From positions 1 through 23,708 of the IMG/VR virus record IMGVR_UViG_3300012036_000025: a stretch of 23,708 nucleotides of DNA; one strand, 5' to 3'. This DNA is from a virus. Below are positions 2,716 through 18,911 of the stretch, piece after piece (position 1 is the first letter of the stretch; every line of letters starts with the position of its first letter). A program made the position numbers and the translations under genes. A model generated the notes under the pieces. That model ran no database searches. It worked only from the letters and a program-made list of their open reading frames with translations, and was not told the DNA's origin.

Positions 2716-5700
2716 ATGGCTAGACGCGACGTAGAACTGGTATTTAAGGCCCGCGACGAAGCGAAGGGTGCTCTTACCGCGATCAACAAAGCTCTTAACG
2801 AGTTCACGGTAAACACCAAGGACGTTCGGGACGAAGCATCGAAAACCGATGTGCGCCTCGCCTCTCTAGGCGGGGCTTTTCGCGATCTGAAACAGGCGGT
2901 CGGCCAGCTTGGTGCGACGGGCCAGGTCGAGCGCCAGCTACGGAACATCTCCGAAGAGATCACGCGCCAGGAAGCGGCGATCACCAGGACCGAGGCGGCC
3001 CTGGCCGACTATTCCTCGCGCTTCAACCAGACACGGCAACAGACCCAGGCGCTTACCCAGACCCAGGCCCAGCTTTCGGCCCAGCTTGAAAAAGCTCGTG
3101 CGTCTGTCGCGCAATCGGCCACGTCACAGAAGGCGCTGGCCTCGGCGACCAATGACGCACGGAAAGCCCAGCAAGCCTACGCGGATCGCCAACGCAAGCT
3201 GACCACCCAGATCACCGAGCAAAACGGCAAGCTCGCCGAGTATGAGACTCGCCTTGCTTCGCTCCGCTCCGAGATCGCGTCCACCGCACAACCGACGGCG
3301 CAACTGACCAGGAACTTCGAACGGACGGCAACGTCCATCGAGCGGACCCAGATCAAGATCGCCGATCTGGTCCAGACCCAGAACTTGGTCCAGGCGTCCT
3401 CGGATCGAGCGGCGGCCTCCGTGCAGCGCGCGAACGACATCTACGGACGGCAAGCGGCCAACCTGGATCGGAACAAGGCGGCCCTGGAGCGCGTCACTCA
3501 GGCATACAACACGGCGGCGACCGCGACTGCGGCGTCGGCTAGAGAACAAGCTCGCCTGGAAGGTGCCGCCAAGAAGTCGGCGGCCTCCCTGGAAGCGCAG
3601 AAAAAGAGCCTGGATAAAGCACGAGCGGCCTATGAGGCGGTCCAGGGCACGGTCGCGGAGACTGCGACGGCCCTCGACAAACTCGACAAGCGGACCCGCG
3701 CCGGACTGTTACAAAACCTGCGGGAGCAAATCACGCGGCTCTCCGAGACGAAGGCGCAATACAAGGCCCTCTCGGCCGAAGCCTCTCGCCTTGGCGCGGC
3801 TCTCGCCAAGACCACCAAGCCGACCAACGCCCAGGTCACGGCCTTCGAACGGTTTCGGGAAGCCGCCGCACAGGCGCGCCAGGAGTTCCGCGCGCAAGGG
3901 CAAGCCTTGTCCAACCTGCGGGGCATCCTTCGAGAGTCTGGTGGCGATGTCGAAGCCCTGTCCAATCGTGTCCAACGGTTCGGCCAGGTCCTCGCCACAG
4001 CACGATCCGGTTACTCCGGCCTCCAGTCGGCATCCAGCACCGCAGCGAACGCGGCGCGTAGGCTCACGTCAGAGCTTGAGAGAGGGGCCAACGCCTCGGA
4101 GCGCCAGAATAGGGCAACCCGCAGACTGGCGGGCTCCATGCGCGCTGGAGCACAAGCCACGGGGCTCTTCGCCAACGCGATCCGCCGCTTCTACGGAGAG
4201 AGCCGGACGGCCCTGTCCTTCACCCAGCGTCTACGCGGTGAAGTCCTGGCCCTGGTCGCGGCATACGGTGGCTTCTTCGCGGCTATCGAAGGCATCCGTG
4301 GCGTGGTCAACGCGCAGCAACAGCTAGAAGCCTCGACCAACCGCTTGAACGTGGTCTTCAACCAGGACCAGACAGCGGTCGCGGGCGAACTGGACTTCAT
4401 CCGCCGTAACGCGCGCCGCCTGGGCGTCGAGTTCGGCTCCCTCGCGAACGAATACACCAAGTTCGCCATCGCCACCCAGGGCACCAACCTGGAGGGGCAG
4501 GAAACCCGTAGAATCTTCCAGTCGGTCGCTGAGTCCGCAAGGGTCAACGGCGCGTCTCTCGACCAGCTACAGGGCACTTTTGTTGCATTAACTCAGATAG
4601 TTAGCAAGGGAACGCTCTCGATGGAAGAGCTTCGCCAACAGCTAGGCGATAGGATTCCAGGCGCGATTAACATCTTCGCGGACGCCCTCGGATTGGGCAC
4701 CGCAGAGTTCATCAAAATGGTGGAGAACGGCGAGATTTCGTCTGACTCCCTGTCGGCGTTCGCGGACGAACTGGACCGCCGCTTTGGCGACCAGCTTCCC
4801 GCAGCGTTGAAAACCACGACCGCCGCCATCGGCCGGTTCCAGAACTCCGTGTTCGAGGCGTTCCTGACCATCGGTAAGGGCGGCGCTATCGAGGGCTTCA
4901 CCGATCTGTTGAACGATCTGATCGAGACCCTGGACTCTGCGGCGGCCGAGGACTTCCTGGCCAAAGTAGGCGGGGCGCTCCAGAGCTTCTTCAACGTGAT
5001 CGGCTCGGTCGTTCGGAATTGGGACCTTCTGATCGTCGCGATCACCACCTTCACGGCCTTCAAGCTCGCGCCCATCATCATCGGCATCGTCGCCACGATG
5101 GGCCGCTGGCAAGCCATCATCCGTCTGACTCGTATCAGGACCGCCGCTCTGACGGCCACCCTGGGCGGCCTGGGCGCGGGAGCGCGCGGCGCGGCCGCAG
5201 GGATCGTGGGGATGCGGGTTGCCCTCCAGGCGCTCCTGTCTTCCACGGGCATTGGGCTCCTGGTCACATTGATCGGCACGGGCATCGGCATCTGGGTGAC
5301 CAGAGGGGCCGAGGCGACCAAGATCATGCGGGCCCACCGAGACATTGTGGATGAGGTCAAGAACGCTTACGACCAGGTGGGCGTCTCTGTGGAAGACGTG
5401 CGTGATCGGCTCCAGAACATCACGACCATCCAGGCCGAGAACAACCTTCGCTCTCTCCAGCGGGCCTATGAGAACACCCTGGACGCTTTCGAGGCGGCCT
5501 TGCCGCGCGACATCTTCGGGAACGTGCTGTCTGCGGGCGGCGGGTTCTTCCAGGAAGTCGAGACCTTGTTCCAGGCTTTCCGCAACGGCGATCGCACGAC
5601 CTACGAGTTCCGCCAGGAGCTTGACGAACTGAGCCAACGCTACGAAGACCTCTTCCCCGTAAACCGTGACTTCGCGGAGACCTTCGATACCCTCGCCGCG

Positions 5701-7710
5701 AACGTCGTGGCAGCGGGCGACGAGCTTGTGGATGCCAATGACATCCTGACGATCCTCACGGGCACCGAGGAAGAGGCCGAGGCCGCTCTCCGGCGCTTGA
5801 ACGATGTGGTCGAAGAGACAGGCGACACGGTAGAGGAAGAAAAAGATCGGCTTGCGGCTTACACCGAGGCCCTGGGCGAGCTTCAATCTCTGGTGCCTTC
5901 GCTTACAGACGAACTCAAGAAGTTCGAGGAAGCGGCGAAGCTCCAGGAAGCCTTCGCGTCGGCCCTGGCACTCGCCAACACATACGAAGAGATGCTGGCC
6001 GTCTTCACGGCGTTCGGCCAAGCCACGCGAGACCTGGAGATCGGAGACATCTTCGACGGCGCGGCTTCTGGTGGGGGCGGGGCTTCCGCTGCATTGCTGA
6101 GACAGTTCGAAGGCTACCGCGAGAACCCGTATAACGATCCTCGCACCGATGCGAACGGCAACCAAGTCGGGCCGAACATCTATCGAGCGGGCTACGGCTC
6201 GGACACGGTGACGCTCTCTGACGGCACGATCCGCCAGGTCACGGAAGGGATGCGAGTCTCTGTGGCCGACGCCAACCGCGATCTCATCCGTCGGATCGGG
6301 GAGTTCCAGGATACCGTCCGTGGGCAGGTCGGGGGTACTCGCTTCGAGTCCTTTACGGATGAGCAACAGGCGGCCCTGACCTCCATCGCCTACAACTACG
6401 GGAGCTTGCCTGACCGGATCGTGGCGGCGGTCCAGTCTGGAACCGTGCCAGAGATCGCCAGCGCCATCCGCAACCTTGGGAGCGACAACGGCGGCGTCAA
6501 CCGTGATCGCCGGAACCTGGAAGCGGACATCTTCTCTGGTGGCGGCGCGCCGAGCGATCAGGCATACCTGGACGCCGAGCGCGAACGGACGCGGGAGCTT
6601 GAGCGTCAAGCGGAACTGCGGGCCGATGAGGCACAAGCCACGGCTGATCGGATCGGCAGCACCGAGTTCGAGATCACCCAGCAAGAACTGGTCAACCAGG
6701 GTCGGGAGCGTGAAGCCGCTATCGAGGCAGCGATCCGTCAAGCGCGTCAAGAGAACTCCGAGATCACGGCCGCCGAGATCGAGCAAATCCGTCGCCTGGA
6801 AGGGCAGAAGTTCGATCTGGAGCAACAGGAGAGAAACGCCAACACCGAGCGCGAGCGCGCCCAGGAGATCGAAGCGAACATCAATGAGCTTGTCCAGCAA
6901 CGGACGGCGCTCCAGTCGCTCCTGGACGAACAACTCGCCAGCGGTGCGGCGGCCTCGGCCATCCAAGAGACACAGACGGCGCTCGTAGGGGTCAACTCCC
7001 AACTGTCCGAAGCCATCGAGAACGCTCTGTCCCTGTTGGAGACCTTCGCCCAGACGGACCCAGCGGTCGCGGCCATCGTGGCGCGGATGCGGGAACTCCA
7101 GATTTCGTCTCAGGCGGCGGGGCAGTCCACACTCATCACGTTCAAACAGGTGTCGGACGCTTTCGCCAACACCTTCACGAACGCGGTCCTGGGTTTCGCG
7201 GAAGCCATCGCCAACGGCGAGAAGGCCACCGTCGCCCTGGGCAACGCCTTCCGCCAGTTTGCCTCGGACTTCCTGTTGCAGATTGCCCAGATGATTATCC
7301 AACAGCTTGCCCTCAATGCGGCGAAAGCGATTGGACGGGCGTTTGGGTTTAGTGTTGCCCACCAGGGCGGCGTGATCGGGGCCAGCGGCATAAGCCGGAA
7401 GGTCTCGCCTTCCGTGTTCGCGGGGGCCACGCGCTACCACAGTGGCGGCGTAGCAGGGCTCCGGCCTGGGGAGGTCCCCACGATCCTCCAGCGGGGCGAA
7501 GAGGTCCTGACACGCGGCGACCCACGGCACATCTTCAACGGCGGCGGCCAGACGGCCGGAGGCACCACGGAGGTCACTCCGAGGATCGTCAACGCCATCG
7601 ACGGCGCGAGCTTCATGGAAGAGGCGTTGAAGGACAAGCGGGGCCAGGAGACGGTCTTGAACTACATCCAGGCCAACCGATCCACGGTTCGCGGCGCTTT
7701 GGGGGTTTGA
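2716..7710 (+). CDS. Tape measure protein with internal lysozyme-like domain
   Basis: This 1664-residue protein sets tail length and is ejected ahead of the DNA. Residues about 50-470 are coiled-coil rich in Gln, Ala and Arg. Residues about 500-720 match the conserved tape measure N-terminal domain ('LSMEELRQQLGDRIPGA' from about 635). Hydrophobic segments occur near 505-525, 768-790 and 840-863 and could cross the host inner membrane. A lysozyme-like (GH24/pesticin-type) domain spans about 1125-1272, with Glu1132 and Asp1141 spaced as in T4 lysozyme, but Arg1157 stands where the catalytic Thr is expected. A second coiled coil covers about 1285-1410. The C-terminus carries the typical 'AHQGGVIG', 'YHSGGVAGLRPGEVP' and 'QRGEEVLTRGDPRH' signatures. 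GGAGG at 2706-2710 precedes the ATG. At roughly 1.5 angstrom per residue, a tail of about 250 nm is expected (rule-of-thumb inference). Confidence 0.93.
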   Translation: MARRDVELVFKARDEAKGALTAINKALNEFTVNTKDVRDEASKTDVRLASLGGAFRDLKQAVGQLGATGQVERQLRNISEEITRQEAAITRTEAALADYSSRFNQTRQQTQALTQTQAQLSAQLEKARASVAQSATSQKALASATNDARKAQQAYADRQRKLTTQITEQNGKLAEYETRLASLRSEIASTAQPTAQLTRNFERTATSIERTQIKIADLVQTQNLVQASSDRAAASVQRANDIYGRQAANLDRNKAALERVTQAYNTAATATAASAREQARLEGAAKKSAASLEAQKKSLDKARAAYEAVQGTVAETATALDKLDKRTRAGLLQNLREQITRLSETKAQYKALSAEASRLGAALAKTTKPTNAQVTAFERFREAAAQARQEFRAQGQALSNLRGILRESGGDVEALSNRVQRFGQVLATARSGYSGLQSASSTAANAARRLTSELERGANASERQNRATRRLAGSMRAGAQATGLFANAIRRFYGESRTALSFTQRLRGEVLALVAAYGGFFAAIEGIRGVVNAQQQLEASTNRLNVVFNQDQTAVAGELDFIRRNARRLGVEFGSLANEYTKFAIATQGTNLEGQETRRIFQSVAESARVNGASLDQLQGTFVALTQIVSKGTLSMEELRQQLGDRIPGAINIFADALGLGTAEFIKMVENGEISSDSLSAFADELDRRFGDQLPAALKTTTAAIGRFQNSVFEAFLTIGKGGAIEGFTDLLNDLIETLDSAAAEDFLAKVGGALQSFFNVIGSVVRNWDLLIVAITTFTAFKLAPIIIGIVATMGRWQAIIRLTRIRTAALTATLGGLGAGARGAAAGIVGMRVALQALLSSTGIGLLVTLIGTGIGIWVTRGAEATKIMRAHRDIVDEVKNAYDQVGVSVEDVRDRLQNITTIQAENNLRSLQRAYENTLDAFEAALPRDIFGNVLSAGGGFFQEVETLFQAFRNGDRTTYEFRQELDELSQRYEDLFPVNRDFAETFDTLAANVVAAGDELVDANDILTILTGTEEEAEAALRRLNDVVEETGDTVEEEKDRLAAYTEALGELQSLVPSLTDELKKFEEAAKLQEAFASALALANTYEEMLAVFTAFGQATRDLEIGDIFDGAASGGGGASAALLRQFEGYRENPYNDPRTDANGNQVGPNIYRAGYGSDTVTLSDGTIRQVTEGMRVSVADANRDLIRRIGEFQDTVRGQVGGTRFESFTDEQQAALTSIAYNYGSLPDRIVAAVQSGTVPEIASAIRNLGSDNGGVNRDRRNLEADIFSGGGAPSDQAYLDAERERTRELERQAELRADEAQATADRIGSTEFEITQQELVNQGREREAAIEAAIRQARQENSEITAAEIEQIRRLEGQKFDLEQQERNANTERERAQEIEANINELVQQRTALQSLLDEQLASGAAASAIQETQTALVGVNSQLSEAIENALSLLETFAQTDPAVAAIVARMRELQISSQAAGQSTLITFKQVSDAFANTFTNAVLGFAEAIANGEKATVALGNAFRQFASDFLLQIAQMIIQQLALNAAKAIGRAFGFSVAHQGGVIGASGISRKVSPSVFAGATRYHSGGVAGLRPGEVPTILQRGEEVLTRGDPRHIFNGGGQTAGGTTEVTPRIVNAIDGASFMEEALKDKRGQETVLNYIQANRSTVRGALGV

Positions 7711-7711
7711 T

Positions 7712-9502
7712 ATGGCAGACCAGAACAAAGCATGGGGTTTTCCGATCCAATGGGCCAGGTCCTACGGGGAAGAGATCAGGTTCCGCACGGAGATCATCAC
7801 CAGTCGGAACGGCAAAGAGCAACGGATCGCCCAGCGGGCTAAGCCGCGCCTTGCCTACGACTTCGAGAGCTTCCTGAATTTCAAGGACTTTCAGAAGGCG
7901 GCGCGGCTCCTGGCCGAAAACCAAGGCAGGGAGATCGCGGTCCCCCATCCTCGGCGGCGAGCGGAACTCACGGCCAAAACCGTTCGGGATGTGACAACCA
8001 CGCGCGCCGTGAGCTTCACGATAGATGACTCCGGCTCGATGGGCGTCGACGGCAAGATCAACACGATGAAGACGGCCATGAACGCGGTCTTCGATGAACT
8101 GAGTCTGGCGCTCACGGACGGCCGCCTCTCGCGCCTCGATCTCCAGGTGTGCGGCTGGGGCGACCTCGCCACACAACAGACCTATCCGAACGCGAGCCCT
8201 GCGGACATCGAACTGGCGCGGACCTACATCAACGGACTGGCGGCGACCAGCGGAGGCACGAACTTCAACGCCGCCGCCCAGCAAGCCGCGACCTTCTTCG
8301 ACACGACCCTCGCCACCAGCTTTGCTCGGCGATGCTGGTTCTTCGTCACCGACGGCCAGCCAACAGGGGGCACCCTGGGCTCGGCGCTTACCACGTCTTC
8401 GGACCTTCGGGATCGTAGCAGCGGGGACTTCAATCTGACCGACGGGACGGATGTGGACATCTACGGGATCAACATCCAGGACGCCTCCACAGGCGCTACG
8501 GGCTCCCTGGACAACACGCCGGAGGATGGGGTGCCAGTGGTGGACGCCCTGGACCCAGACGCCTTGCTCTACGCCCTCCTGTCCGGCGTGTTCGGCCAGG
8601 TGATCGAGATCGACGGCACCCAGGACTGGATGCAACCGAACACTCCTGCCTTCCTGGAGAACGACACCGCGCGGGAACTGGTCAACATCACCCGCGCCAC
8701 GGGCAATGTGATCTACACCGACGGCGCGCTCTTGAACACGTTCGACGCGGGCACCAAGGTCTACGGCGCGGTCTACGGGACGTTCTCCAACGACTCCTCC
8801 TTGCGGGCGGCGACCACTCGTGTCGGCCTGTCGCGCGTGGAGTTCGATGCGAACGTCCTGGGCACCTATCACGAGGACTGGTCTACCGCTCCTGCGGACA
8901 CCTTGAACGGCCTGGAGCTTCTTCGTATCCCGCACCAGTGGGCCACGGATTTCACCATGACCTTCGAGCAACCGTTCGAGGGGCGCGACATGAACCGAGG
9001 CCCCACGGAACGCTATTTCCCCGTGGACTTCACGACACGGATCATGTCCGTCCGGCACGTCATCCGAAACGAGGACCACATGAGCCGAGTCATCGGTCTC
9101 TTCTACCGGAGCCGTGGCAAACAGAAACCGTTCTACTGCCCGACCTTCATTGACGAATGGCGGCCTGTCGGCAACCTGCCCAGCGTCTCCCAGACGATGA
9201 CGATCCCTGGCCGTGAGTTCTACGACCAGTTCAACGGGAGCGCGATGTATCGCTACTTCCAGGTGGTCACGCCAGCCTTCACCTACATCCGTGGGATCAC
9301 GTCGATGACGGTTGACGGCGCGGGGAACACCCAGATTACTCTCGACTCCATCTGGTCCACGGACATCGACTTTGACGACATCCAGTCGATCTCCTGGGTG
9401 GTGAAGTGTCGGTTCGAGACAGACACGCTCTCCCTGGAATGGTTGACAGACGGGGTGGCGGAGACGACTATGAAAATTCGAACCCTGGAGGACGTTGCAT
9501 GA
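7712..9502 (+). CDS. Distal tail-like minor tail protein with inserted VWA domain
   Basis: This 596-residue protein directly follows the tape measure, the place of the distal tail/M-like protein that joins tube to tip. Residues 1-90 look like an ordinary minor tail N-terminus ('TEIITSRNGKEQRIAQRAKPR'). Residues about 96-295 are a von Willebrand A domain: 'FTIDDSGSMG' gives DxSxS (D105, S107, S109), 'SGGTNF' gives T183 and 'FVTDGQPTGG' gives D214, a complete MIDAS metal site. Residues about 300-596 return to tail-protein sequence ('IPHQWATDFTMTFEQPFEGR', 'RYFPVDFTTRIMSVRHVIRN'). The start at 7712 lies one base after the upstream stop, and the stop overlaps the next gene (ATGA, 9499-9502). VWA domains with intact MIDAS usually bind protein partners through Mg2+ or similar ions, so an adhesion role is inferred. 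A close paralogue of the domain lies in the J-like protein. Confidence 0.82.
   Translation: MADQNKAWGFPIQWARSYGEEIRFRTEIITSRNGKEQRIAQRAKPRLAYDFESFLNFKDFQKAARLLAENQGREIAVPHPRRRAELTAKTVRDVTTTRAVSFTIDDSGSMGVDGKINTMKTAMNAVFDELSLALTDGRLSRLDLQVCGWGDLATQQTYPNASPADIELARTYINGLAATSGGTNFNAAAQQAATFFDTTLATSFARRCWFFVTDGQPTGGTLGSALTTSSDLRDRSSGDFNLTDGTDVDIYGINIQDASTGATGSLDNTPEDGVPVVDALDPDALLYALLSGVFGQVIEIDGTQDWMQPNTPAFLENDTARELVNITRATGNVIYTDGALLNTFDAGTKVYGAVYGTFSNDSSLRAATTRVGLSRVEFDANVLGTYHEDWSTAPADTLNGLELLRIPHQWATDFTMTFEQPFEGRDMNRGPTERYFPVDFTTRIMSVRHVIRNEDHMSRVIGLFYRSRGKQKPFYCPTFIDEWRPVGNLPSVSQTMTIPGREFYDQFNGSAMYRYFQVVTPAFTYIRGITSMTVDGAGNTQITLDSIWSTDIDFDDIQSISWVVKCRFETDTLSLEWLTDGVAETTMKIRTLEDVA
8000..8599 (+). 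repeat. VWA domain coding region, copy 1 (paralogue of 11294-11896)
   Basis: This part of the distal tail-like gene encodes a VWA domain clearly homologous to that in the J-like gene. The two share 'TIDDSGSMG', 'NTMKTAMN', 'TYPNA', 'ATSGGT', 'TDGQPTGG' and 'SSGDFN', with about half of residues identical by eye. Some DNA blocks are exactly shared: 17 bases at 8027-8043 and 11324-11340, and 19 bases at 8058-8076 and 11355-11373. The flanking protein sequences are unrelated, so this is a duplicated or twice-acquired domain, not a gene duplication. Confidence 0.85.
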
Positions 9503-10359
9503 CCTACGAGAACTACGAGAGTAGTCTCGATGAGGGACTCCAGGCTTCCCTTTTCTTGATCCAGTATGGCTCCGAGGATGCCAACTACTTCGCCTACACG
9601 GACATAGGTGTCCCCGTGACTTTCGACGGTGTGGAATACGCGCCAACAGTCATCGGTCGCGAGAAGATCGAGTCCAGCGGGGGCCTGGATAACAAGACCC
9701 TGGAGATCGACATCACGCCGTCGGCCTCTGTGGTCAAGTTCTACCAGAACCGCCAACCATCCCAGGTGGTGACGATCACGATCCGCCAGGGCCATGTGGA
9801 CGATCCAGCGAACGATTTCGTAGTCGTGTGGACGGGGCGGATCATCGGCATCGAGCAAAAGAGCCGCTATGCGAAGATCAGCGCGGAGCCTGTCGCCACG
9901 TCGATGAAGCGGCCAGGTCTCCGTCGGCACTATCAGTATGGGTGCCCCTGGGCGCTCTACTCGGATGACTGTGGGGCCAACCGCGCAGCGGGCTCTGTGG
10001 TCGCCGCAGTCTTCACCGTGGGCTTGAACGTGATCGAGTTCACCCCAGGCTGGGAGGGTGCGAAGCCCGCAGGAAAGTTTGCTGGGGGATACATCCAGTG
10101 GGCGGACGCGGACGACAACTCCCTCCAGACACGAACGATCCTGAGTGTGCAACTTGGGGCGGGGGCCGACGGTCGGGATCGACTGGCGCTTAACGGTTCG
10201 ACCGACGGCCTGGAAGAACTGGCCGTCATGACTCTCTTCGTAGGGTGCAACCACGGCATGAGCGATTGTGCCGGACTGCACAACAACATCCAGAACTTCG
10301 GTGGCCAACCTTGGATTCCCCAAGAGAACCCCGTCGGCTTTGTGAATAGGTTCTATTGA
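9499..10359 (+). CDS. Four-cysteine tail hub protein (DUF2163/BR0599-like, lambda gpL-like)
   Basis: This 286-residue protein resembles the DUF2163/phage BR0599 family, whose gene transfer agent member is a hub protein under the tail tube and which parallels lambda gpL. The C-terminal half has exactly four cysteines in two pairs: C149 and C158 ('YGCPWALYSDDCGAN'), then C250 and C257 ('VGCNHGMSDCAGL'), followed by 'NFGGQPWIPQENP'. Lambda gpL binds an iron-sulfur cluster through conserved cysteines, and these four are the natural candidates here. The N-terminal half ('VTFDGVEYAPTVIGREKIE', 'IRQGHVDDPANDFVVVWTG') is beta-rich. I chose the ATG at 9499, which overlaps the upstream stop in ATGA; the upstream in-frame start at 9406 would extend it into an unlikely Arg/Gly-rich leader lying wholly inside the previous gene. 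Confidence 0.85.
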   Translation: MTYENYESSLDEGLQASLFLIQYGSEDANYFAYTDIGVPVTFDGVEYAPTVIGREKIESSGGLDNKTLEIDITPSASVVKFYQNRQPSQVVTITIRQGHVDDPANDFVVVWTGRIIGIEQKSRYAKISAEPVATSMKRPGLRRHYQYGCPWALYSDDCGANRAAGSVVAAVFTVGLNVIEFTPGWEGAKPAGKFAGGYIQWADADDNSLQTRTILSVQLGAGADGRDRLALNGSTDGLEELAVMTLFVGCNHGMSDCAGLHNNIQNFGGQPWIPQENPVGFVNRFY

Positions 10360-10360
10360 C

Positions 10361-10594
10361 ATGCCTTGGTGGTGGCTCATTCAACTTGTCGTCGCGGTGG
10401 CCCTTGCGGTCATCGCCTATGCTCTTGCGCCGAAGCCTAAGAAGGTGAAGCCCGCAGCTACGAAAGACCTGGACAATCCCACGGCCGACGCGGGACGACC
10501 GATCCCCGTGGTCTTCGGCTCGATCAACGTGTCCGGCGTGAACGTCCTGTGGTTCGGTGACAAGCACAAGAGAGAATACGAGGTCAATGCATGA
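10361..10594 (+). CDS. Small membrane-anchored tail assembly protein (like the gpI C-terminus)
   Basis: This 77-residue protein has an N-terminal hydrophobic segment (residues about 4-22, 'WWLIQLVVAVALAVIAYAL') followed by 'APKPKKVKP' and then 'DAGRPIPVVFGSINVSGVNV'. Lambda tail assembly protein I ends with a similar plan: a glycine/alanine-rich hydrophobic helix, 'LAPKAR', and a final segment with a 'LPVLYGEMRVGS' motif. The gene occupies the I-like slot between the L-like hub and the J-like tip protein. I infer a role in assembling or anchoring the J-like protein rather than an enzymatic function. The start is two bases after the upstream stop, and its stop overlaps the next ATG (10591-10594). 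Confidence 0.6.
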   Translation: MPWWWLIQLVVAVALAVIAYALAPKPKKVKPAATKDLDNPTADAGRPIPVVFGSINVSGVNVLWFGDKHKREYEVNA

Positions 10595-10824
10595 CCGAAA
10601 GACTCACACTCACGGAAGAGACCGACTTCATCCTCACGATGGACGACTGTCGCCGTGCGGGGCATTGCCCCCAGGGGGTCCGCAGATGGTTCGAAGGCAT
10701 GGGCCTGGACTTCCGCGACTTCTTGAAGAACGGGCGGTCGGCAAAGGAGCTCCTGGACACTGGCGATGGGCTTGCCCTCCAGGTCATAACGAGAGCCCGG
10801 GAACACCGGAAAGGGGACCTCTGA
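10591..10824 (+). CDS. Small conserved phage protein of unknown function in the tail-tip cluster
   Basis: This 77-residue soluble protein starts at an ATGA overlap. Its core reads 'MDDCRRAGHCPQGVRRWFE', then 'GLDFRDFLKNGRSAKELL' and 'GDGLALQVITRAREHRK'. I recall this layout, in which two cysteines (C20, C26) precede a tryptophan helix and a 'GLD..FL.NG' stretch, from small genes beside tail-tip genes in other phages, but I know no function. It has no membrane segment or signal peptide. Small size and conserved place suggest a chaperone or connector needed to assemble the J-like protein encoded next, whose start is two bases downstream; this is inference. The peptidase gene (NlpC/P60, lambda gpK-like) usually found in this stretch is absent. 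Confidence 0.6.
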   Translation: MTERLTLTEETDFILTMDDCRRAGHCPQGVRRWFEGMGLDFRDFLKNGRSAKELLDTGDGLALQVITRAREHRKGDL

Positions 10825-10825
10825 T

Positions 10826-13699
10826 ATGGGTAAGGGCGGCGGTTCACCGAAGCAAAGAGTCACCGAATACAACATGAGCATCCACTACGGCATCTGTCAG
10901 GGGCCAGTGGATACTCTGTCGCGTATTCGCGTCAATGAGAAGGTGGCTTGGCTCGGCGCACGGCGCTCGAACGGGGACTTTCGGATCGACAACAAAGGGC
11001 TCTTCGGGGGCATCAAGAAAGAGGGCGGTGTCCAGGGCCAGGTCTATTGGCGCAAGGGGGACTTCTCCCAGACGCTACCGGAGAAACTGGCCCAGAAGCT
11101 CGGACTTACCTCGGCGACCGCGCCCGGGATGCGGGGGATCGCCCACGCCTTCTTCACCGATAACTCCGTGTCATCGCAACCAGGTTTCTACTGGTCCGCG
11201 AACCAGCCTTTCATCGCGCCCCTGGACTTCCTGGTCACGCGGATTGCGGACTCCTGGAACCCAGACCAAGCCCTGATCGCGGGCATCCCGCCCTTCCCTC
11301 TCGCGGCCAGCCTCACGATTGACGACTCCGGCTCGATGGGTGACGACGGCAAGGTCAACACGATGAAGACGGCGATGAACCTCGCTCTGGATCGTATCCG
11401 AGGGGCCATCTCTTTCAACGATCTAAAGATCGACATCCACATCGCGAAGTGGGGGGACAGTGGGGCGGTCTCGGAGCGAACGTATCCGAACGCCACGGCG
11501 GCGAACATCAACAGCGCCAAGAGCTTCATCAACGGCTTCAACGCGACCTCTGGGGGCACGGACTTCAATGAGGCGGCCACACGGGCCGATACCTTCATGC
11601 GATCCACCCTCGGCAAAGACCTGGGCGCGCGCGTGTGGCTCTTCCTCACAGACGGGCAACCCACAGGGGGCTCTCTGGCGGCGGCAACAGCTACGGCCGC
11701 AGACATGTTGAGTCCGTCTTCCGGCGACTTCAACTCGGCGGCGGGCACGGCTGTCGGCGCTTACGGGGTCAACATCCAAGACCTCGACATCAACGCGACG
11801 GCGGCCCTGGACAACACGGGGATCGACGGGATTCCTGTGATCGCGCAAGACGATCCCGCAGGTCTTTTGAACGTGATCCAGCGCGCGATCTTCGGCGGTT
11901 CGAACCCCGACGTGAACCCTGCCCACATCATCTACGAGTGCCTTACGAACACGAAGTATGGCATGGGCGCGCCGATCAGTCAGATTGACGACACGGCGTT
12001 CCGTGCTGCGGCCGAAACCCTCTTCTTCGAAGGCTTCGGTCTCTCGATGATCTGGGTCGAGCAAACCGAGATCGAGAACTTCGTCCAAGAGGTCCTGGAC
12101 CATATCGAGGCCAACCTCTACGTCGATCCCGCGACGGGCAAGTTCGTCCTCAAGCTCATCCGTAACGACTATGACGAAGCCACCTTGCCTGTCTTCGATG
12201 AGAGCAACAGCGTCGTCACGTCCTACTCGCGGCGCTCCCCTGCGGAGATCATTAACGAGATCAACGTCACCTGGACAAACCCAGATAACGAGAAGGAAGA
12301 GGTCGTCACGATTCAGGACCTCGGCGGGATCGTCCAGTCCAACGGCCAGATCATCTCGGACAACCGGAACTATTATGGTGTCCGCCGCAAGGACCTGGCC
12401 TGGGCCATCGCGCAGCGAGACATCTCGGCGGCAACGGCACGTCTTGCCACGGTGCAGATGGACGTGAACCGTCAAGCGTATAACCTAGCCCCAGGGGCGG
12501 TCTTCAAGCTGACCAGCACCGAGCACGGCGCGACCGATGAGGTCATGCGCGTGGTCAAGGTGGACTACGGCAAGCCTGGTGACTCCACAGTCCAGGTCAA
12601 CGCCACCCAGGACATTTTCAGCTTCGAGCGACCTGTCTACGAAATCCCACCAGATGGGGAGTTCGACGGCGGCGGCCAGGAGCCCGAACTGTTCGACACG
12701 ACCCTCGCCTTCACCTTGCCGTATTCCCTCACGGGCTACTTCGTGACCGCGACCTCCCTCCAGACAGCGGCGTATCCCGACGTGTGGGTGGGTGTCCTCG
12801 CCAGCACGACGAACACGGACGCCATCGAAGCCGAGTTCGTGGGGCCTGTGCTCGATCCCGCAGGTAACGTGATCCAGGAGCCCCTGGGCACCCGTAGCGT
12901 GGTCTCTCGCGGCTTGATGCCCCAGGAGATGGTGCAAGAGGCCGAGACCATCTTCCCCGGCTTCTCTGACCTTACCGTGGGCTCTGGGCCTACCCAGGGC
13001 GGGTTCGGCCTTATCGCGGACCCAGGGACGCCAGAGGAAGAAGCCGAGCTTGTCATGTTCCGCACCTTCGACGGCACGAACTGGACCATCGCGCGGGGCA
13101 TCCTCGACACGGTGCCGAGGGCATGGCCTTCGGGGACTCGAGTCCACTTCTTCGGGGTGGACACGAGCTTCGTGGACCAGGATGTCAGATCGGCGATGGA
13201 GACCCTGACCTACAAGGTCTTGATGCGGACAAGCCTCGGCCAGTTCAATGAGACCAGCGCGCCGGACATCAACTACACCACGAACGAACGGCCGCACCAA
13301 CCCTCGCGCCCAGCGAACGTAGAGATCGAGGGCGTGGCCTTCGCCGACGTGGACGCTTCTACAGGGGGTGGCGACATCACCGTCACCTGGTCGAACCGGA
13401 ACCGGATCACAGAGGACTCCCAGGTTATGGCCTGGGACGATCCAGGGATCACGCCGGAGGTCGGCCAGACGGTCAAGATCACGATCCGAGACGCCAGCAC
13501 GAACTTGGTGGAGACCGAGATCACGGGGATCACGGGGGAGACCTACGACATCCCAAGGGCTTCCTTTGGATCACTCTCTCGTGCTATCGTTATCGTGACC
13601 GCAGAAAGGGATGGCTTCGAGTCCTTCCAGGGAATTGAGCAATTCATCACACTAGCAGCGGGCTACGGCTTCGGCTACGGCCTGTCTTATGGAGGGTAA
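10826..13699 (+). CDS. J-like central tail tip protein with inserted VWA domain
   Basis: This 957-residue protein fits the lambda gpJ/phage-tail-3 family that forms the end of the tail and contacts the receptor. The N-terminus ('SIHYGICQGPVDTLSRIRVNEKVAW') and the stretch after residue 360 ('NPAHIIYECLTNTKYGMG', 'LSMIWVEQTEIENFVQEVLD', 'NYYGVRRKDLAWAIAQRD') are typical. Between them, residues about 157-357 form a VWA domain with a complete MIDAS: 'LTIDDSGSMG' (D166, S168, S170), 'SGGTDF' (T245) and 'FLTDGQPTGG' (D276). Uninserted relatives would run directly from 'RIADSWNPDQALI' into 'NPAHIIYEC'. The C-terminus has a fibronectin-like strand region ('PSRPANVEIEG', 'GDITVTWSNRNRITEDSQ') and ends in a Gly/Tyr-rich tail ('GYGFGYGLSYGG'). 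The ATG follows AAGGGGA by a usable spacing. Confidence 0.87.
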   Translation: MGKGGGSPKQRVTEYNMSIHYGICQGPVDTLSRIRVNEKVAWLGARRSNGDFRIDNKGLFGGIKKEGGVQGQVYWRKGDFSQTLPEKLAQKLGLTSATAPGMRGIAHAFFTDNSVSSQPGFYWSANQPFIAPLDFLVTRIADSWNPDQALIAGIPPFPLAASLTIDDSGSMGDDGKVNTMKTAMNLALDRIRGAISFNDLKIDIHIAKWGDSGAVSERTYPNATAANINSAKSFINGFNATSGGTDFNEAATRADTFMRSTLGKDLGARVWLFLTDGQPTGGSLAAATATAADMLSPSSGDFNSAAGTAVGAYGVNIQDLDINATAALDNTGIDGIPVIAQDDPAGLLNVIQRAIFGGSNPDVNPAHIIYECLTNTKYGMGAPISQIDDTAFRAAAETLFFEGFGLSMIWVEQTEIENFVQEVLDHIEANLYVDPATGKFVLKLIRNDYDEATLPVFDESNSVVTSYSRRSPAEIINEINVTWTNPDNEKEEVVTIQDLGGIVQSNGQIISDNRNYYGVRRKDLAWAIAQRDISAATARLATVQMDVNRQAYNLAPGAVFKLTSTEHGATDEVMRVVKVDYGKPGDSTVQVNATQDIFSFERPVYEIPPDGEFDGGGQEPELFDTTLAFTLPYSLTGYFVTATSLQTAAYPDVWVGVLASTTNTDAIEAEFVGPVLDPAGNVIQEPLGTRSVVSRGLMPQEMVQEAETIFPGFSDLTVGSGPTQGGFGLIADPGTPEEEAELVMFRTFDGTNWTIARGILDTVPRAWPSGTRVHFFGVDTSFVDQDVRSAMETLTYKVLMRTSLGQFNETSAPDINYTTNERPHQPSRPANVEIEGVAFADVDASTGGGDITVTWSNRNRITEDSQVMAWDDPGITPEVGQTVKITIRDASTNLVETEITGITGETYDIPRASFGSLSRAIVIVTAERDGFESFQGIEQFITLAAGYGFGYGLSYGG
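11294..11896 (+). repeat. VWA domain coding region, copy 2 (paralogue of 8000-8599)
   Basis: This is the second VWA copy, inside the J-like protein. Both copies begin just before the first strand of the VWA fold and end at a matching 'FG' ('GVFG' in copy 1, 'AIFG' in copy 2), which puts the inserted unit at about 200 residues in each host protein. Differences are spread along the length, so the two have diverged for some time or were acquired from different relatives. Confidence 0.85.
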
Positions 13700-13701
13700 C
13701 T

Positions 13702-16359
13702 ATGCCTGATAGATCACTTCCAGGACTAGGGCTTTCGGGCTATTGGGACCTGGGCTCCGACACCTGGAAACCAGGCATGGACACCAACTTGCGGCTCCTG
13801 TCCGCAGTAGCAGGGGCGAGGGTGACTTCGCGCACGGCCGCGCTCCCAGATTCTCCTGGCGCTCTTTCGATCCAGATCGCGCCTCTTGGGGATGCCCAGG
13901 AGAACAAGCTCGCCATCTGGGACGGAGAGTCCGGCGCGGAAGCGTGGGTCTACCTGACCGCGCAACCTGGGTGGCACTTCTACGTCATTGACGAAGGCAT
14001 CAACATCCAATGGACGGGCCTTGCCTGGGTCGAGTTCGCGGGAGCCGGAGGCGGCACCAGCGGCGGTGGAGCAACCAGCGGCCCCCAGATCATCCTGACC
14101 GCAGAGCAATCCGTCGGGCAGCTTATCGACACGACCACGGAGACCGTGGATTTCGACACGGTGACAGAGGACTCTAACTCCCTGTGGAACGCCGTAGACG
14201 CCACGATCCGTATGCCCGCAGATGCGGCTGGCCGGACTGTCGTCATCGTCGCCCAGACGAAGCACTCGGCCGACGGCGCGGGCGCACTCGAAACGGTTTT
14301 GGAAAGATCGGAAGACAGCGGTTCGACGTGGGATGTGATCGGTTCGTCCGGCACGTCCGAGGACTACTTCGGCATCTCCAGGCTTACGGCTCTCGTGGTC
14401 CTCCTGGGCAATGAATGGTATCGCGTCCGGCAAACGACTGTCGCGACGAAAACCACGTCCGGCGACAACCAGACGGCTCTCAGCTTGACCACCATCGGCG
14501 ACGGCCAGGTCGGGCGGATCATCAAGCGAACGCAAACCGTTCCGCTCTTGAACCCGCAATTCAACGCGGGCGATTTCACAAGCTGGACGAACTCGACGGG
14601 CTCCGGCACCCTCAAAATCTACATTCCACCGGACAAGGAATATGATCACGTCCTCCATCCCAGCGGCTTCAACTACATGGGCTTGGCCGGATCGACTGGT
14701 GGTCCGTGGTTCATCGAACAAAAGATCACGATCCCCTCCGAGTCGGGCACTTTGACGGTCCAGTGGGACCAGCACACCCGTCTCGTGGACGATCAGATGC
14801 GACTGGAGATCGACTGGTTGGACCTCGGCGATAGTGTGCTTAGCACCTACCTCGGCCCGTCTTACGTCAACTCGGCGAACCAGCTTTGGGAGAGGTTCGG
14901 AGATACCGTAGGTTCGATTCCTGCGGGAGCCGTGGCCGCGATGGTCAGGTTCCGCACTGTCGTCACGGGCGGCAGCCAACAGATCAACATCACGAACTTT
15001 TCTTGTCAGGTGGGCATCCTGGGCGTGTCAGGCATGTTGCCAGGGTCGGTCTACGCCTACCTCCCAGAACTGGCGACGAACCAGGACAAGGTGCTCACGG
15101 TCAACGCTACGGGCGACGGCGTGGAGTGGGGCTTCGTTCCTCTCCGTATCCAGGCGGGCGGGATCGACCAGGCCAAGCCGCAGGGCATCGAGTTCCTGGG
15201 CACGGACTTCTCGGCGACCCTTGACGGGGACACCGTGCAGATCGAGTTCCAGGGCAAGGTTGCCGTTGACGGCGCGGGCGGCGAAGTCACCGCAGGGCTT
15301 ACCAGGCTGACCTTCACAGGGGCGGGCGTGGGCCTGTCGTCACCTATTGCCGGAGAGATCGACATCACGATCCCTGGGCCTGGGGAAGCGGTCCCACCCG
15401 CTACCGCGATTGAAGAGATCGACGGCTTCGAGGTTGTGCGCTCGAACCTGGGAGGCTTCGACCGAGGCCGCCCTCTGGTATGGGACGGCCCAGCGAACGC
15501 TTTCGTTCCTTTGCCTCCGGACCTGGGGACAATCGCTTATGGGGGCGGGAGTCAAGTTCTTGTCGATCAGGATATGACAGGGCTCTCCGACTTCACGCTC
15601 ACGGAAGCGGACCACAATCTCTCCAATTTCGATGAGCTTCACTTCTTCCTTTTCCAGACGGACATCCGCGCGGACATCTTCATCTCCAGCGACGGGGGCT
15701 CCACAGTCGAGACCGTCAACCGAGCATATTCTGGTGATGGCGGAACTTCCGAGGGCACGGAGGGAGACGATGAGTTCTACCTCGGCGGATGGGATGCGGT
15801 GGAAGCGGGGCAACTTGGTTACGGCGTCATGACGTTTGCTTCGAACCCAGACTCCTACACGTTCTGGAACATGTTCGGTGCAACCTCTGGAGTAAGATCG
15901 GAACGCAAAGAGTTCTCGCACACCATAGCGAGATCGACCATCAACCATATCCTGGTTGACGGGAGTTCGGGGAACTTCACGGCGGGGCGCTTGATGGTCA
16001 TCGGCGTCAAGAAGGGAACGCAACCTGTGGACCTGTCGGCGCGCGTCGAGAACGGAGCGGCCTTCACGTCGGACCAGGAACTCTTGTTCCAGGAGACGAT
16101 GGGCGTTCGGTTCCTTCCAGGGGTTCGAGGCAGGGTCCGCGTCGATCCTGCGGCCAATGCCGATGCCGAGTTCCAGCTTACCTCCGGCGACGGGACGGTG
16201 ATCGGGACGGCCACGGTGCTCGCCTCAGAGACCGAGGCGGACTTCGTTTTGGTCTCTTCGGCCACTGTCTCGGACGCGGTGAAGGTGCTGGCCCCTACCA
16301 TTGTGGATAGCGCGATCCAGAGCGCCTACATCGCTCTTCGGGGGGAGGCGAACCGATGA
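13702..16359 (+). CDS. DUF2793-like tail fibre / surface protein
   Basis: This 885-residue protein probably forms a fibre or side spike. Residues 1-115 resemble the DUF2793 domain of phage fibres ('SGYWDLGSDTWKPGMDTNL', 'NKLAIWDGESGAEAWVYL', 'GWHFYVIDEGINIQWTGLAW'). A Gly/Thr-rich linker ('GGGTSGGGATSG') follows. The middle holds a probable beta-sandwich ('LNPQFNAGDFTSWT' to about residue 440, like carbohydrate-binding galactose-binding folds), then repeated short beta modules, and the C-terminus has the recurring fibre ending 'GVRGRVRVDPAANADAEFQL' ... 'KVLAPTIVDSAIQSAYIALR'. GGAGG at 13691-13695 and ATG at 13702 support the start. Its stop overlaps the protease gene start (ATGA, 16356-16359), so the two are likely made in matched amounts. 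Receptor target is unknown. Confidence 0.72.
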   Translation: MPDRSLPGLGLSGYWDLGSDTWKPGMDTNLRLLSAVAGARVTSRTAALPDSPGALSIQIAPLGDAQENKLAIWDGESGAEAWVYLTAQPGWHFYVIDEGINIQWTGLAWVEFAGAGGGTSGGGATSGPQIILTAEQSVGQLIDTTTETVDFDTVTEDSNSLWNAVDATIRMPADAAGRTVVIVAQTKHSADGAGALETVLERSEDSGSTWDVIGSSGTSEDYFGISRLTALVVLLGNEWYRVRQTTVATKTTSGDNQTALSLTTIGDGQVGRIIKRTQTVPLLNPQFNAGDFTSWTNSTGSGTLKIYIPPDKEYDHVLHPSGFNYMGLAGSTGGPWFIEQKITIPSESGTLTVQWDQHTRLVDDQMRLEIDWLDLGDSVLSTYLGPSYVNSANQLWERFGDTVGSIPAGAVAAMVRFRTVVTGGSQQINITNFSCQVGILGVSGMLPGSVYAYLPELATNQDKVLTVNATGDGVEWGFVPLRIQAGGIDQAKPQGIEFLGTDFSATLDGDTVQIEFQGKVAVDGAGGEVTAGLTRLTFTGAGVGLSSPIAGEIDITIPGPGEAVPPATAIEEIDGFEVVRSNLGGFDRGRPLVWDGPANAFVPLPPDLGTIAYGGGSQVLVDQDMTGLSDFTLTEADHNLSNFDELHFFLFQTDIRADIFISSDGGSTVETVNRAYSGDGGTSEGTEGDDEFYLGGWDAVEAGQLGYGVMTFASNPDSYTFWNMFGATSGVRSERKEFSHTIARSTINHILVDGSSGNFTAGRLMVIGVKKGTQPVDLSARVENGAAFTSDQELLFQETMGVRFLPGVRGRVRVDPAANADAEFQLTSGDGTVIGTATVLASETEADFVLVSSATVSDAVKVLAPTIVDSAIQSAYIALRGEANR

Positions 16360-18911
16360 CCACGATTATCGTCAGCGTTCGGAGAGTCGAAGACCTGGAG
16401 CCCACGAAAGCGGCGCTCGCGGAGTTCGGCGACATCCAGAACTTCACCGCCTTGAAGAAGGTCTTCATCCTCGACATCGGGGGTGGGGACGAAGCGATGG
16501 CGATGTTGGCTCTCTCTGCCCTCCCAGGGGTGACTGGAGCGATCAACGGCGAGCAAACCATGAAGCCGGGGGCCTTGGAAACCGAGTTCATCTTCGAGGG
16601 CAGGGACGCGAAGGAAAAGGCGGGGGCTCTTCGATTGAAGGCCACGATGGACACGGACAAGCCGACGTTCAACAACTGGTGGGAGCAACCCAACTTCTTC
16701 AAATGGCGAAAGGATTCAGAACGGCTCGGCCAGGATGTCATGATCGCCATTGTGGACGGGGGTATCCGCACAGGGCACCCAGAGTTCGCCAAGAACCCCT
16801 CCAGGATCACTCGTGTTCACAACGCCTACACGGCCGACTTCGGGGCGTCGAACCACGGGACCGCCTGTGCGAGTTTTGCCGCTGGAGACACGATTGGGAT
16901 CGCGCCGCTGGCGGAACTTCTGGACGTGAAAATCTTCAACTCGGCGGGCGATCCAGTAACCGTCACAACTATCGTAGCAGGGCTCGACGCCCTTATGGCC
17001 TGGGTCACAACTCCAGGGAACAACCCAGACGACAAATTCGTCATCGTGAACATCTCTCTGGGCTCTGGCGGCGTAGGGCTCGCCAACAGCTACGGCACGA
17101 TCATCCAGGAGATGGAAGATATAGGGATGATCCCCATCATTGCTGCGGGGAACGATGGCAGCGATCTCGGCACTACGTTCGATGCTTGGCCCGCCGAAAA
17201 CTCGGACTACGCCATCGGGGCCATCCAGCTTGACGGTAGGCGCGCCGAGTTCTCCAACTACGGCGGGCGCGTGAAGTTCTACGGGTTCGGATCGAGGGTG
17301 GTCGGGGCAGGGTATCCGGGCGCAAACGGCTATGATGTCGTCAACGGCACGAGCTTTGCGACTCCCTACTTCTGTGGGTGTCTCGCAACATGGTTGTCCG
17401 GCAAGTATCGGCCAACGAACGCGGCGGCCATCAAGATTCTCATGACGGACTACGAGGCGTTCTGCCAAGAAGGCATTTTCGGGAACTCGGTCAGAGGTTT
17501 CGCGGGGTCGGACACGCTACCTGGCACAGTCATCGGGCGGGCCTCCTACTTCCCTGTGCTCCCTGGCAACGTGATCGTGCCGAACACGTCGATCATCACG
17601 AGCTTCGGGACCGCAGACCAGGGCGTCCTCGCCTGGAAGACCAGGTTGTTTGCCCAGGTGGGCGGCGCTCCTGTGGGATCGGGCGGCATCGTGGCTTCAA
17701 CTGTCGCGTTCTTCGAAGGCCCGTTCTTTGCGGACGCGGATGAAGGGCCGTGGCTCGATCCTCTCTACGTCCCCACAGGATGGTCCATCGGCAATGACAG
17801 GGTGAAGCACGATGGAGGGTCCACCGTGGCGAACAAATTCGTGGTCAGCAAATCCAACCTCATCGCGAAAGAGTATTGGGAGGTCCAGGCCAAAAGCGCG
17901 ACCACCGGACTTTCTGTTGGCGTGACGCTGGCCTCGAACCTGGCGAACTACGACGAAGCGACGACGGGCATCGGGGACGCTGGGTTCGAATGGTTCGCAG
18001 ATGGGTCTCTGACCGTGGACGGCGTGGCCCAGACGGCGATCTCCACCTACGCGGACGGCGACATCCTCATGCTTTCCTACGACGTTTCCACCGGAGACTT
18101 CTGGGTCGGGAAGAATGGAATCTGGGAGGACGATCCAGAGGTCGATCCGGCCACAGGCTCGATGACTTCGGGGGCTTCGAGGGCCGCTATCGGCATGGCT
18201 GACGATGGGTGTCGAGCCCAGATGCTCGGTGCGGGCAGGTTCCATGCCTATAACGACACGACCGATTACACAGGGTTTGACATCGGAGCCGTAACTCAGT
18301 GGGTCTTGGACACCGCGACCTTTAACTATGCAGGGCACGTTTACGCGGAAGGCGACACCAGGCTCACGAACGCAACTGGAGGGACCAACTACAGAGTGTT
18401 TGTTCCTACAATTCGGTCGATGCCAGACAGCTATGCTGGCAAGATTTATTGGGAGTTCCACTGTAACACGCTGGGAGGATCGTTCTACACCGGCTATCAT
18501 TCTGTGTTGTCCGCCGAAGCGAGGACGGCACTGCTCGCGAACATAGATGCTAACGTGAACCCCGTCGGGTTGGGCTCTTTGGCTCGAAGGGGGACCGGAA
18601 CTTTGTGGGACGGTAACTTAGGTTTTGGTTCCGGCACAAAAGATGTCATTAGCCTCACCCCCTTCGGAGCCAATGACGTTTTGATGATGTGCTTCGACCC
18701 ATCGACCGCAGAGATATGGACAGGCGTCAACGGAGTCTGGGACGACGATCCAGATACCGATCCGCCGACCTACACGGGGCCTGTGGCCTCGGCCGAGTTC
18801 TACATCTGTTTGCAAGGCCGCAATGCCGACCAGGGGGGTCGCCTGGTTTCCCTGTCAAACGAGATGACATATACCCTGCCAACGGGGGCCACCCCCCTCG
18901 GCTTGATTTAA
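16356..18911 (+). CDS. Virion-associated subtilisin-like protease fused to two SPRY-type lectin-like repeats
   Basis: This 851-residue protein carries a peptidase S8 (subtilase) domain, unusual in a phage tail region. Residues about 1-75 resemble an inhibitor I9-type propeptide. The catalytic triad is visible as D134 ('IAIVDGGIRTGHPEF'), H167 ('NHGTACAS') and S333 ('NGTSFATPYFCG'), with N266 ('IIAAGNDGS') for the oxyanion hole. The spacings (33, 99 and 67) are close to those of subtilisin (32, 91, 66), so an active enzyme is expected. Residues about 495-640 and 650-830 are two tandem SPRY/concanavalin-like repeats, each with 'YWE' and a 'W(V/T)G(K/V)NG(I/V)W(E/D)DDP' motif (about 506 and 583; about 698 and 788). 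I infer degradation of a host surface protein after glycan or protein binding, or maturation of a neighbouring virion protein. GGGGGAGG precedes the start. Confidence 0.9.
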   Translation: MTTIIVSVRRVEDLEPTKAALAEFGDIQNFTALKKVFILDIGGGDEAMAMLALSALPGVTGAINGEQTMKPGALETEFIFEGRDAKEKAGALRLKATMDTDKPTFNNWWEQPNFFKWRKDSERLGQDVMIAIVDGGIRTGHPEFAKNPSRITRVHNAYTADFGASNHGTACASFAAGDTIGIAPLAELLDVKIFNSAGDPVTVTTIVAGLDALMAWVTTPGNNPDDKFVIVNISLGSGGVGLANSYGTIIQEMEDIGMIPIIAAGNDGSDLGTTFDAWPAENSDYAIGAIQLDGRRAEFSNYGGRVKFYGFGSRVVGAGYPGANGYDVVNGTSFATPYFCGCLATWLSGKYRPTNAAAIKILMTDYEAFCQEGIFGNSVRGFAGSDTLPGTVIGRASYFPVLPGNVIVPNTSIITSFGTADQGVLAWKTRLFAQVGGAPVGSGGIVASTVAFFEGPFFADADEGPWLDPLYVPTGWSIGNDRVKHDGGSTVANKFVVSKSNLIAKEYWEVQAKSATTGLSVGVTLASNLANYDEATTGIGDAGFEWFADGSLTVDGVAQTAISTYADGDILMLSYDVSTGDFWVGKNGIWEDDPEVDPATGSMTSGASRAAIGMADDGCRAQMLGAGRFHAYNDTTDYTGFDIGAVTQWVLDTATFNYAGHVYAEGDTRLTNATGGTNYRVFVPTIRSMPDSYAGKIYWEFHCNTLGGSFYTGYHSVLSAEARTALLANIDANVNPVGLGSLARRGTGTLWDGNLGFGSGTKDVISLTPFGANDVLMMCFDPSTAEIWTGVNGVWDDDPDTDPPTYTGPVASAEFYICLQGRNADQGGRLVSLSNEMTYTLPTGATPLGLI

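Follow-up and report, generated by a model that had tools for sequence, protein, structure and literature searches.

Two baseplate proteins of a siphophage tail module, a Dit-like distal tail protein and a J-like protein, each carry an inserted VWA domain, and the two domains are homologous and retain all of their MIDAS residues. The DNA analyzed here (the window) comprises 23,708 bases of virus record IMGVR_UViG_3300012036_000025, positions 1 to 23,708. We give a probability of roughly 0.6 to the reading that these domains constitute a MIDAS-dependent adhesion module in two baseplate copies, the second copied from J, that would engage a host ligand through a metal ion. On this reading, a metal-dependent adhesion fold known from integrins and pilus tips would have been copied repeatedly between adjoining baseplate parts with its metal-site residues kept.

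The window has a G+C content of 61% and encodes a siphophage tail module. The tape measure gene (2716-7710) is marked by a TMP_3 domain, and residues 1130-1230 of its product form a phage lysozyme domain. An antisense open frame of 1028 aa lies over this gene on the minus strand (4642-7728) and is probably a by-product of the G+C content. Directly 3' of the tape measure gene, a complete plus-strand ORF encodes the Dit-like protein (7712..9502, 596 aa). The plus-strand gene that follows (9490..10359) encodes a hub or upper baseplate protein without a VWA domain (phrog_778, phrog_15205, and Pfam Phage_phiJL001_Gp84_N); its frame was read from 9490, and the first ATG in frame is at 9499. Hub cysteines 152, 161, 253, and 260 (numbering begins at the frame start, 9490) are spaced by 9 and 7, as are the metal-binding cysteines 147, 156, 238, and 245 given for gp50 in the JBD30 baseplate account (PMC11445458). 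Two small plus-strand genes (10361..10594 and 10591..10824), each encoding 77 aa, match phrog_1180 and phrog_1196, both with the PHROG description tail assembly chaperone, and precede the complete plus-strand ORF of the J-like protein (10826..13699, 957 aa; phrog_1101, E 4e-202). The J-like protein ends in a Gly/Tyr-rich C-terminal tail encoded at 13661-13696 (GYGFGYGLSYGG). Further genes 3' of J include one for an N-acetylmuramidase, and the tail module also encodes a subtilisin-like S8 protease of 851 aa (16356-18911; Pfam E 2e-22); in Xanthomonas phage Mallos (L006), an S8/S53 protease is annotated at a similar place. In a J tree the clade of the window groups with four Casjensviridae rows (L008, L009, L010, and L012; support 98), the window being represented there as a fragment and by one protein.

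Both carrier proteins were identified by structure. Outside its VWA domain, the Dit-like protein matches JBD30 gp49 (8rk3_D) with Z 34.4 over 389 residues at 3.2 A and Chi 8vjh_B with Z 33.7, and it combines this Dit fold with a gene place 3' of the tape measure gene. The J-like protein has a Phage-tail_3 domain (PF13550, E 1e-13), and as a whole it matches JBD30 gp53 (8rk3_b; Z 31.6, 690 residues) and the Chi tail-tip chain 8vjh_A (Z 31.1, 705 residues), in each case with an overall rmsd near 28 A. Given these identities, the placement of the two proteins at adjacent levels of the tail tip, as the preliminary description had it, seems fair. Both the Dit-like and the J-like baseplate proteins are trimers in the JBD30 baseplate account (PMC11445458), and by analogy the baseplate of the window phage would hold three VWA copies per protein; the Dit proteins of RcGTA and R4C are described as hexamers (PMC7296036, PMC10276861). 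According to the account of JBD30 (PMC11445458), gp49 has an N-terminal arm that reaches around the tail fibres as well as two OB domains; by residue count, the insert in the Dit-like protein would lie close to where gp49 domain III meets the first OB domain.

The VWA domain of the Dit-like protein spans residues 98-295 (8003..8596, plus strand) and that of the J-like protein residues 159-357 (11300..11896, plus strand). They are paralogous domains of about 200 residues, as first described, with 51% identity (101/199 residues, E 4e-55), and among the matches listed no second significant similarity connects the two proteins (next E 3.2), in agreement with the earlier statement that the flanks are unrelated. 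The Dit copy scores 28.0 bits against Pfam VWA_2, above the cut-off of 27. The J copy alone stays below both curated Pfam cut-offs (VWA, 21.6 vs 23.8 bits; VWA_2, 19.7 vs 27), and it is called VWA by sequence because it is 51% identical to the Dit copy. A PDB sequence search with the J domain gave two weak matches (E 0.0015 and 0.0016), and NCBIfam held no phage VWA family for the five proteins tried, both window proteins weakly matching part of a sortase-target model. Two other origins of the resemblance were considered and rejected, namely chance similarity, which the E value rules out, and whole-gene duplication, which is ruled out by the unrelated flanks.

Structure prediction of the J-like protein alone produced the VWA fold. 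The AF2 model has a mean pLDDT of 85 with high confidence in the VWA part, which matches 6fpy_A (Z 21.0, 184 residues, 2.2 A) and the VWA domain of ITIH4 (9c4f_I; Z 20.8, 176 residues, 2.2 A). Among its best solved neighbours are a vWFA domain from a large adhesin of Aeromonas (9das), the pilus-tip protein Mfa5 (6tnj), and human VWA proteins; integrin I domains appear as fold neighbours only, and we claim no integrin membership. The outcome for the Dit-like protein was divided. Its model (mean pLDDT 71) fits the Dit fold outside the VWA domain, while pLDDT falls below 50 over residues 94-112 and 141-282, which is most of the VWA part and was modelled from a shallow alignment. The VWA fold of the Dit copy is assigned by homology to the J copy, and not from its own model.

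Judged by alignment to relatives, both VWA copies are insertions. Residues 96|298 of the Dit-like protein join to 118|119 in the uninserted Ruegeria phage V18 (L010), and 86|288 join to 187|186 in the uninserted locus L014. For the J-like protein, 151|362 join to 295|298 in the uninserted Achromobacter phage AchV4 (L012), and 139|358 join to 163|175 in the uninserted phiAxp-2 (L008). The expectation that uninserted relatives would be continuous at these points therefore holds for several of them, exactly or nearly so, at each site. Two relatives, L010 (J 8962-11868) and L013 (J 2786-6151), hold other inserts at the J site, of about 200 and 350 residues, which do not resemble the VWA profile (hhalign gave probabilities of 0.3 and 0.2%). 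In addition, the Dit-like protein of L008 contains a TIM barrel and the hub of L009 a GTA TIM barrel. These unrelated inserts and TIM barrels suggest that Dit, hub, and J are open to accessory domains.

VWA domains of the MIDAS type are defined by a DxSxS motif followed by a threonine and an aspartate. All ten MIDAS residues named in the preliminary description are present at their exact positions, D105, S107, S109, T183, and D214 in the Dit-like protein and D166, S168, S170, T245, and D276 in the J-like protein. The same residues are kept across the family, with all five intact in 64 of 68 non-redundant domains. Conservation of D, S, S, T, and D in this set is 100, 100, 100, 94, and 100%, whereas the commonest residue of a column reaches 48% on average over 180 columns, and the four exceptions have E (three domains) or G (one domain) at the threonine position. 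The set was drawn from 110 domains (E <1e-20) of the window and loci up to L103, and within each kind of carrier protein redundancy was reduced at 90% identity. Hand curation removed six loci: L001 and L002, which are the window itself, L015 and L018, which share a contig with L019, and L103, which is Bordetella phage MW2, and L048, an IMG/VR contig with the make-up of L005 (FP1). The partial domains of L024 Dit and L077 J were excluded, and the 56 loci from the scan of bacterial and archaeal contigs described below stand outside the set. A degenerate J copy in L053 (J 5989-9153; E 4e-11) fell below the cut, so that this known MIDAS loss is not counted in the 64 of 68; it is without the DxSxS motif, and the Dit copy on the same contig has the full MIDAS set. 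A second conserved motif, DNTPxDG, lies outside the MIDAS; in the J-like protein it comprises D329, N330, T331, D334, and G335 (11810-11830), and these positions are 92-98% conserved.

Profile searches placed the domain in three kinds of carrier protein across the window and 159 further loci, namely J, the hub N-terminus, or Dit. All three genes were complete in 102 of these 160 sources (J 72, hub and J 13, Dit and J 9, Dit 4, none 4), which were reduced to 52 clusters at 90% J identity and labelled by their first member. The 52 non-redundant loci divide into 31 with the domain in J only, nine in hub and J, six in Dit and J, two in Dit only, and four without it. These proportions should not be read as unbiased frequencies, as the four VWA-free loci belong to five named uninserted relatives chosen by hand (L008-L012) and the other loci counted were fetched with VWA-bearing queries. 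Of the five, L011 is incomplete and stands outside the counts, as do the likewise incomplete J relatives L013 and L014, which have no VWA. L053 was counted as Dit and J despite its degenerate J copy, and the J copy of L130 is partial. A single cluster, the L047 group, is mixed, two of its nine loci carrying Dit and J copies and seven a J copy only. The check on co-occurrence thus found two inserts together in 15 of 48 non-redundant VWA-bearing loci (J and Dit 6, J and hub 9) and a single copy in the other 33; carriage by Dit and hub, or by all three proteins, was absent among these 48.

Among 50,697 phage records, a search with the VWA domain of QH3 J found 42 places in 27 records at E 1e-3. 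Fifteen of the 27 have two places (QH3, BAPIC_0004, V45iii, two PaMx28, two Mallos, and eight Bordetella phage records), and 12 have one (seven Rhodobacter phage records, RcTitan and RcSpartan among them, Bhz59, two Elanor, and two Erythrobacter phages). The scan of bacterial and archaeal genome contigs yielded 56 loci, of which 41 are, by their record titles, from what we take to be Rhodobacterales; the others include Gilliamella, Luteimonas, and a metagenome assembly named for Anaerolinea. We infer that the loci on such contigs are prophages. Bordetella phage CN1 has a protein with a VWA domain upstream of J (KY000221.1, 53713-54246), where the related FP1 has its hub; the record labels it an FAD/FMN-containing dehydrogenase, probably a misannotation.

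This distribution bears on how the two copies might work together. The preliminary description had proposed that the domains of the two rings could bind each other as a latch, Dit VWA to J VWA, that opens on receptor contact. The copies do lie in adjacent baseplate proteins, and the two-copy loci among the 48 always combine J with one neighbour (hub 9, Dit 6). However, 33 of the 48 have no second copy for a latch to engage, L053 has lost the MIDAS motif from its J copy while the Dit copy keeps it, and Dit copies occupy several different places in Dit across loci and would not keep one geometry. A latch is thus disfavored as a general function, and we consider it very improbable. Independent adhesion modules fit better than a two-part latch, because the domain is optional, occurs in any of three baseplate proteins, and is in this sample more commonly present as a single copy. 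Three loci (L087, L099, and L100) carry the domain in Dit only; together with the MIDAS loss in J of L053 they indicate that the domain can change protein, as would be expected if the copies work singly.

The origin of the second copy was addressed with a tree of the 68 VWA domains. The Dit and J copies of the window and L029 form one clade (100/97), the sisters of which are the J copies of L021 and L024 (99/92). Carrier labels change seven times for Dit, twice for hub, and nine times for J on this tree, and starred branches force seven, two, and eight of these changes. A single clade of all 12 Dit copies was rejected (p-AU 1e-50), as was one of all 45 J copies (p-AU 4e-10), in tests whose groups were set by carrier protein and which were run after the tree had been seen. 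The rejection for J is what one would expect of Dit and hub copies that arose from J copies more than once. A quick tree built from J minus its VWA domain has five changes for Dit copies, three for hub copies, and five for J copies; both trees have long branches, and some placements are uncertain. The window, L029, L021, and L025 form one clade of this second tree, all with Dit and J copies. The window's Dit copy was most likely made from the J copy within its own lineage, because the window and L029 copies form one clade and the Dit copies of L021 and L025 differ in site, being N-terminal, and stand on a separate branch of the VWA tree. The same outcome appears to have been reached several times in other lineages.

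From the unrelated flanks it had been argued earlier that a domain, not a gene, was duplicated or acquired twice. Duplication of a domain stands, and the alternative of two outside acquisitions is ruled out by the single clade with L029. Ongoing gene conversion in the window lineage was also considered and is ruled out, as the window and L029 Dit copies group together and the J copies do likewise. Elsewhere, the Dit VWA of L047 (Dit 4186-5877) is 71% identical to the J VWA of its own locus and 48-54% identical to the same-site Dit VWAs of L073, L086, and L087; by these identities it looks like a Dit copy overwritten from J.

Domains that arise this often could be passive decoration, copied by recombination and nearly neutral. 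The frequent gains on both trees would suit that explanation, as would the decay of one copy in L053 and the L047 group, in which J proteins are at least 90% identical and the presence of a Dit copy in two of nine loci suggests that it is readily gained or lost. Comparison of the window with the near-identical L016 gave dN 0.007 and dS 0.007 for the Dit VWA and dN 0.011 and dS 0.004 for the Dit flanks, and these very few changes carry no mark of purifying selection. Against neutrality stand the five intact MIDAS residues in 64 of 68 domains and the more distant comparison with L029, in which dN/dS is about 0.22 for the Dit copy (dN 0.22, dS 1.02) and about 0.45 for the J copy (dN 0.38, dS 0.84) by NG86, rough estimates with dS near saturation. 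The J VWA is 58% identical between the window and L029, below the 73% of the J C-terminal part, a greater divergence that counts in favor of adhesion, and the Dit VWA is 72% identical, equal to the Dit flanks (72%). On balance, we regard near-neutral decoration as quite improbable.

If the MIDAS residues are kept for a function, the partner of the metal site could lie within the virion. Each MIDAS would then hold an acidic residue of a conserved phage protein, such as the tail fibre or the hub, and stabilize or gate the baseplate with no host ligand involved. Such a role would explain why the MIDAS and DNTPxDG residues are retained in phages whose hosts differ widely, and the N-terminal Dit domain of JBD30 is described as wrapping the tail fibres (PMC11445458). 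Yet many related baseplates do without the domain, 749 phage records matching the window's J at E 1e-5 and 27 matching the VWA at E 1e-3, and both its carrier protein and its position vary. A family count found no partner gene restricted to VWA bearers, in a weak test for which single linkage merged families and just four loci were VWA-free. We consider this internal role unlikely.

In integrin I domains, the MIDAS metal coordinates an acidic group of the ligand. For the baseplate domains we favor an adhesion module working along similar lines. The VWA domain would fill accessory slots of baseplate proteins that hold other domains in relatives, during adsorption its MIDAS metal ion would most likely bind a ligand on the host surface by an acidic group, and the second copy, in Dit, could add avidity or a second binding level. 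The integrin-like, metal-dependent adhesion first proposed for the VWA pair is plausible. A host-facing role also suits the position of the domains, because the authors of work on RcGTA and R4C see the binding of host sugars as the task of accessory domains in Dit, hub, and megatron (PMC7296036, PMC10276861). A more elaborate version, in which VWA copying between adjacent rings repeatedly built a two-level MIDAS adhesin that is sensitive to force or metal and whose dual engagement helps trigger baseplate opening, is speculative, and we doubt it.

Several observations weigh against the adhesion reading. First, phages whose hosts differ widely have the MIDAS and DNTPxDG residues in common, whereas surfaces that bind receptors usually vary, and such conservation also fits an internal phage partner. 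Second, similarity of fold is no proof of function, and the MIDAS residues may also serve folding. Finally, the comparison with L016 gives no indication of purifying selection from its few changes, four of the 68 domains are without the MIDAS threonine, and the Dit model is of low confidence. If the MIDAS works as we propose, dependence of adsorption on divalent cations would, in these phages, trace to a concrete and mutable cause, and the VWA copies would be a clear case of baseplates gaining binding parts through domain copying within a genome.

The preliminary description knew of no phage system of this kind. We likewise found no description of a paired or roaming VWA arrangement in searches of openly licensed papers, and the main text of the Lydia/Mesyanzhinovviridae paper contains neither "Willebrand" nor "VWA" (PMC11946847). 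The earlier claim is too broad as it stands, as 15 of 50,697 phage records have two copies and a VWA in gp164 of Bacillus thuringiensis phage 0305phi8-36 was described in 2007 (PMC2147016); the paired pattern is not unique to the window. In gp164 the domain is reported as swapped into a protein of the baseplate/fibre region, and its authors suggest that virion proteins have gained domains by transfer within the genome (PMC2147016). Unlike the window phage, 0305phi8-36 has a long contractile tail, and one VWA is reported, in another protein; the two are likened by description only. Other reports mention phage VWA proteins in passages that give no baseplate role, in Hardycor1 (PMC7911831), Rpl1 (PMC9960720), Vi01-like phages (PMC10892097), and RsoM2USA (PMC8504454), and VWA is listed among the fibre domains of contractile injection systems (PMC12923769).

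Outside phages, the pilus-tip adhesins PilY1, as described in PMC9210963, and Mfa5 place a VWA domain at the tip of a surface organelle, and Mfa5 is among the best fold matches of the J domain; these are bacterial pili, linked to the phage domains by fold only. JBD30 (gp49 and gp53) and Chi (8vjh) share the Dit and J-like folds of the window (Z 34.4 and 33.7 for Dit, 31.6 and 31.1 for J), but their J-like chains have 727 and 769 residues, some 190-230 fewer than that of the window, and the baseplate description of JBD30 names OB domains in gp49 and mentions no VWA there (PMC11445458). RcGTA and R4C carry extra domains with a putative role in host-surface binding on Dit, hub, and megatron, the same kinds of protein as in the window, although those described are of OB type or other carbohydrate-binding domains, and Dit is hexameric there (PMC7296036, PMC10276861). 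With the window's Dit VWA as query, 12 phage records were found, the best place in each being 27-32% identical. Titanvirus RcTitan and RcSpartan have a VWA domain in a Dit-like protein 3' of the tape measure gene, as in the window, but at another position in Dit, and none was found in their J. Like the window, Septimatrevirus QH3, Variovorax phages BAPIC_0004 and V45iii, Vojvodinavirus FP1 and MW2, Pamexvirus PaMx28, and Xanthomonas phage Mallos have two baseplate VWA domains from this family, with J carrying one; unlike the window's Dit copy, the second domain of the QH3/FP1/PaMx28 type stands at the hub N-terminus, with the phrog_15205 make-up.
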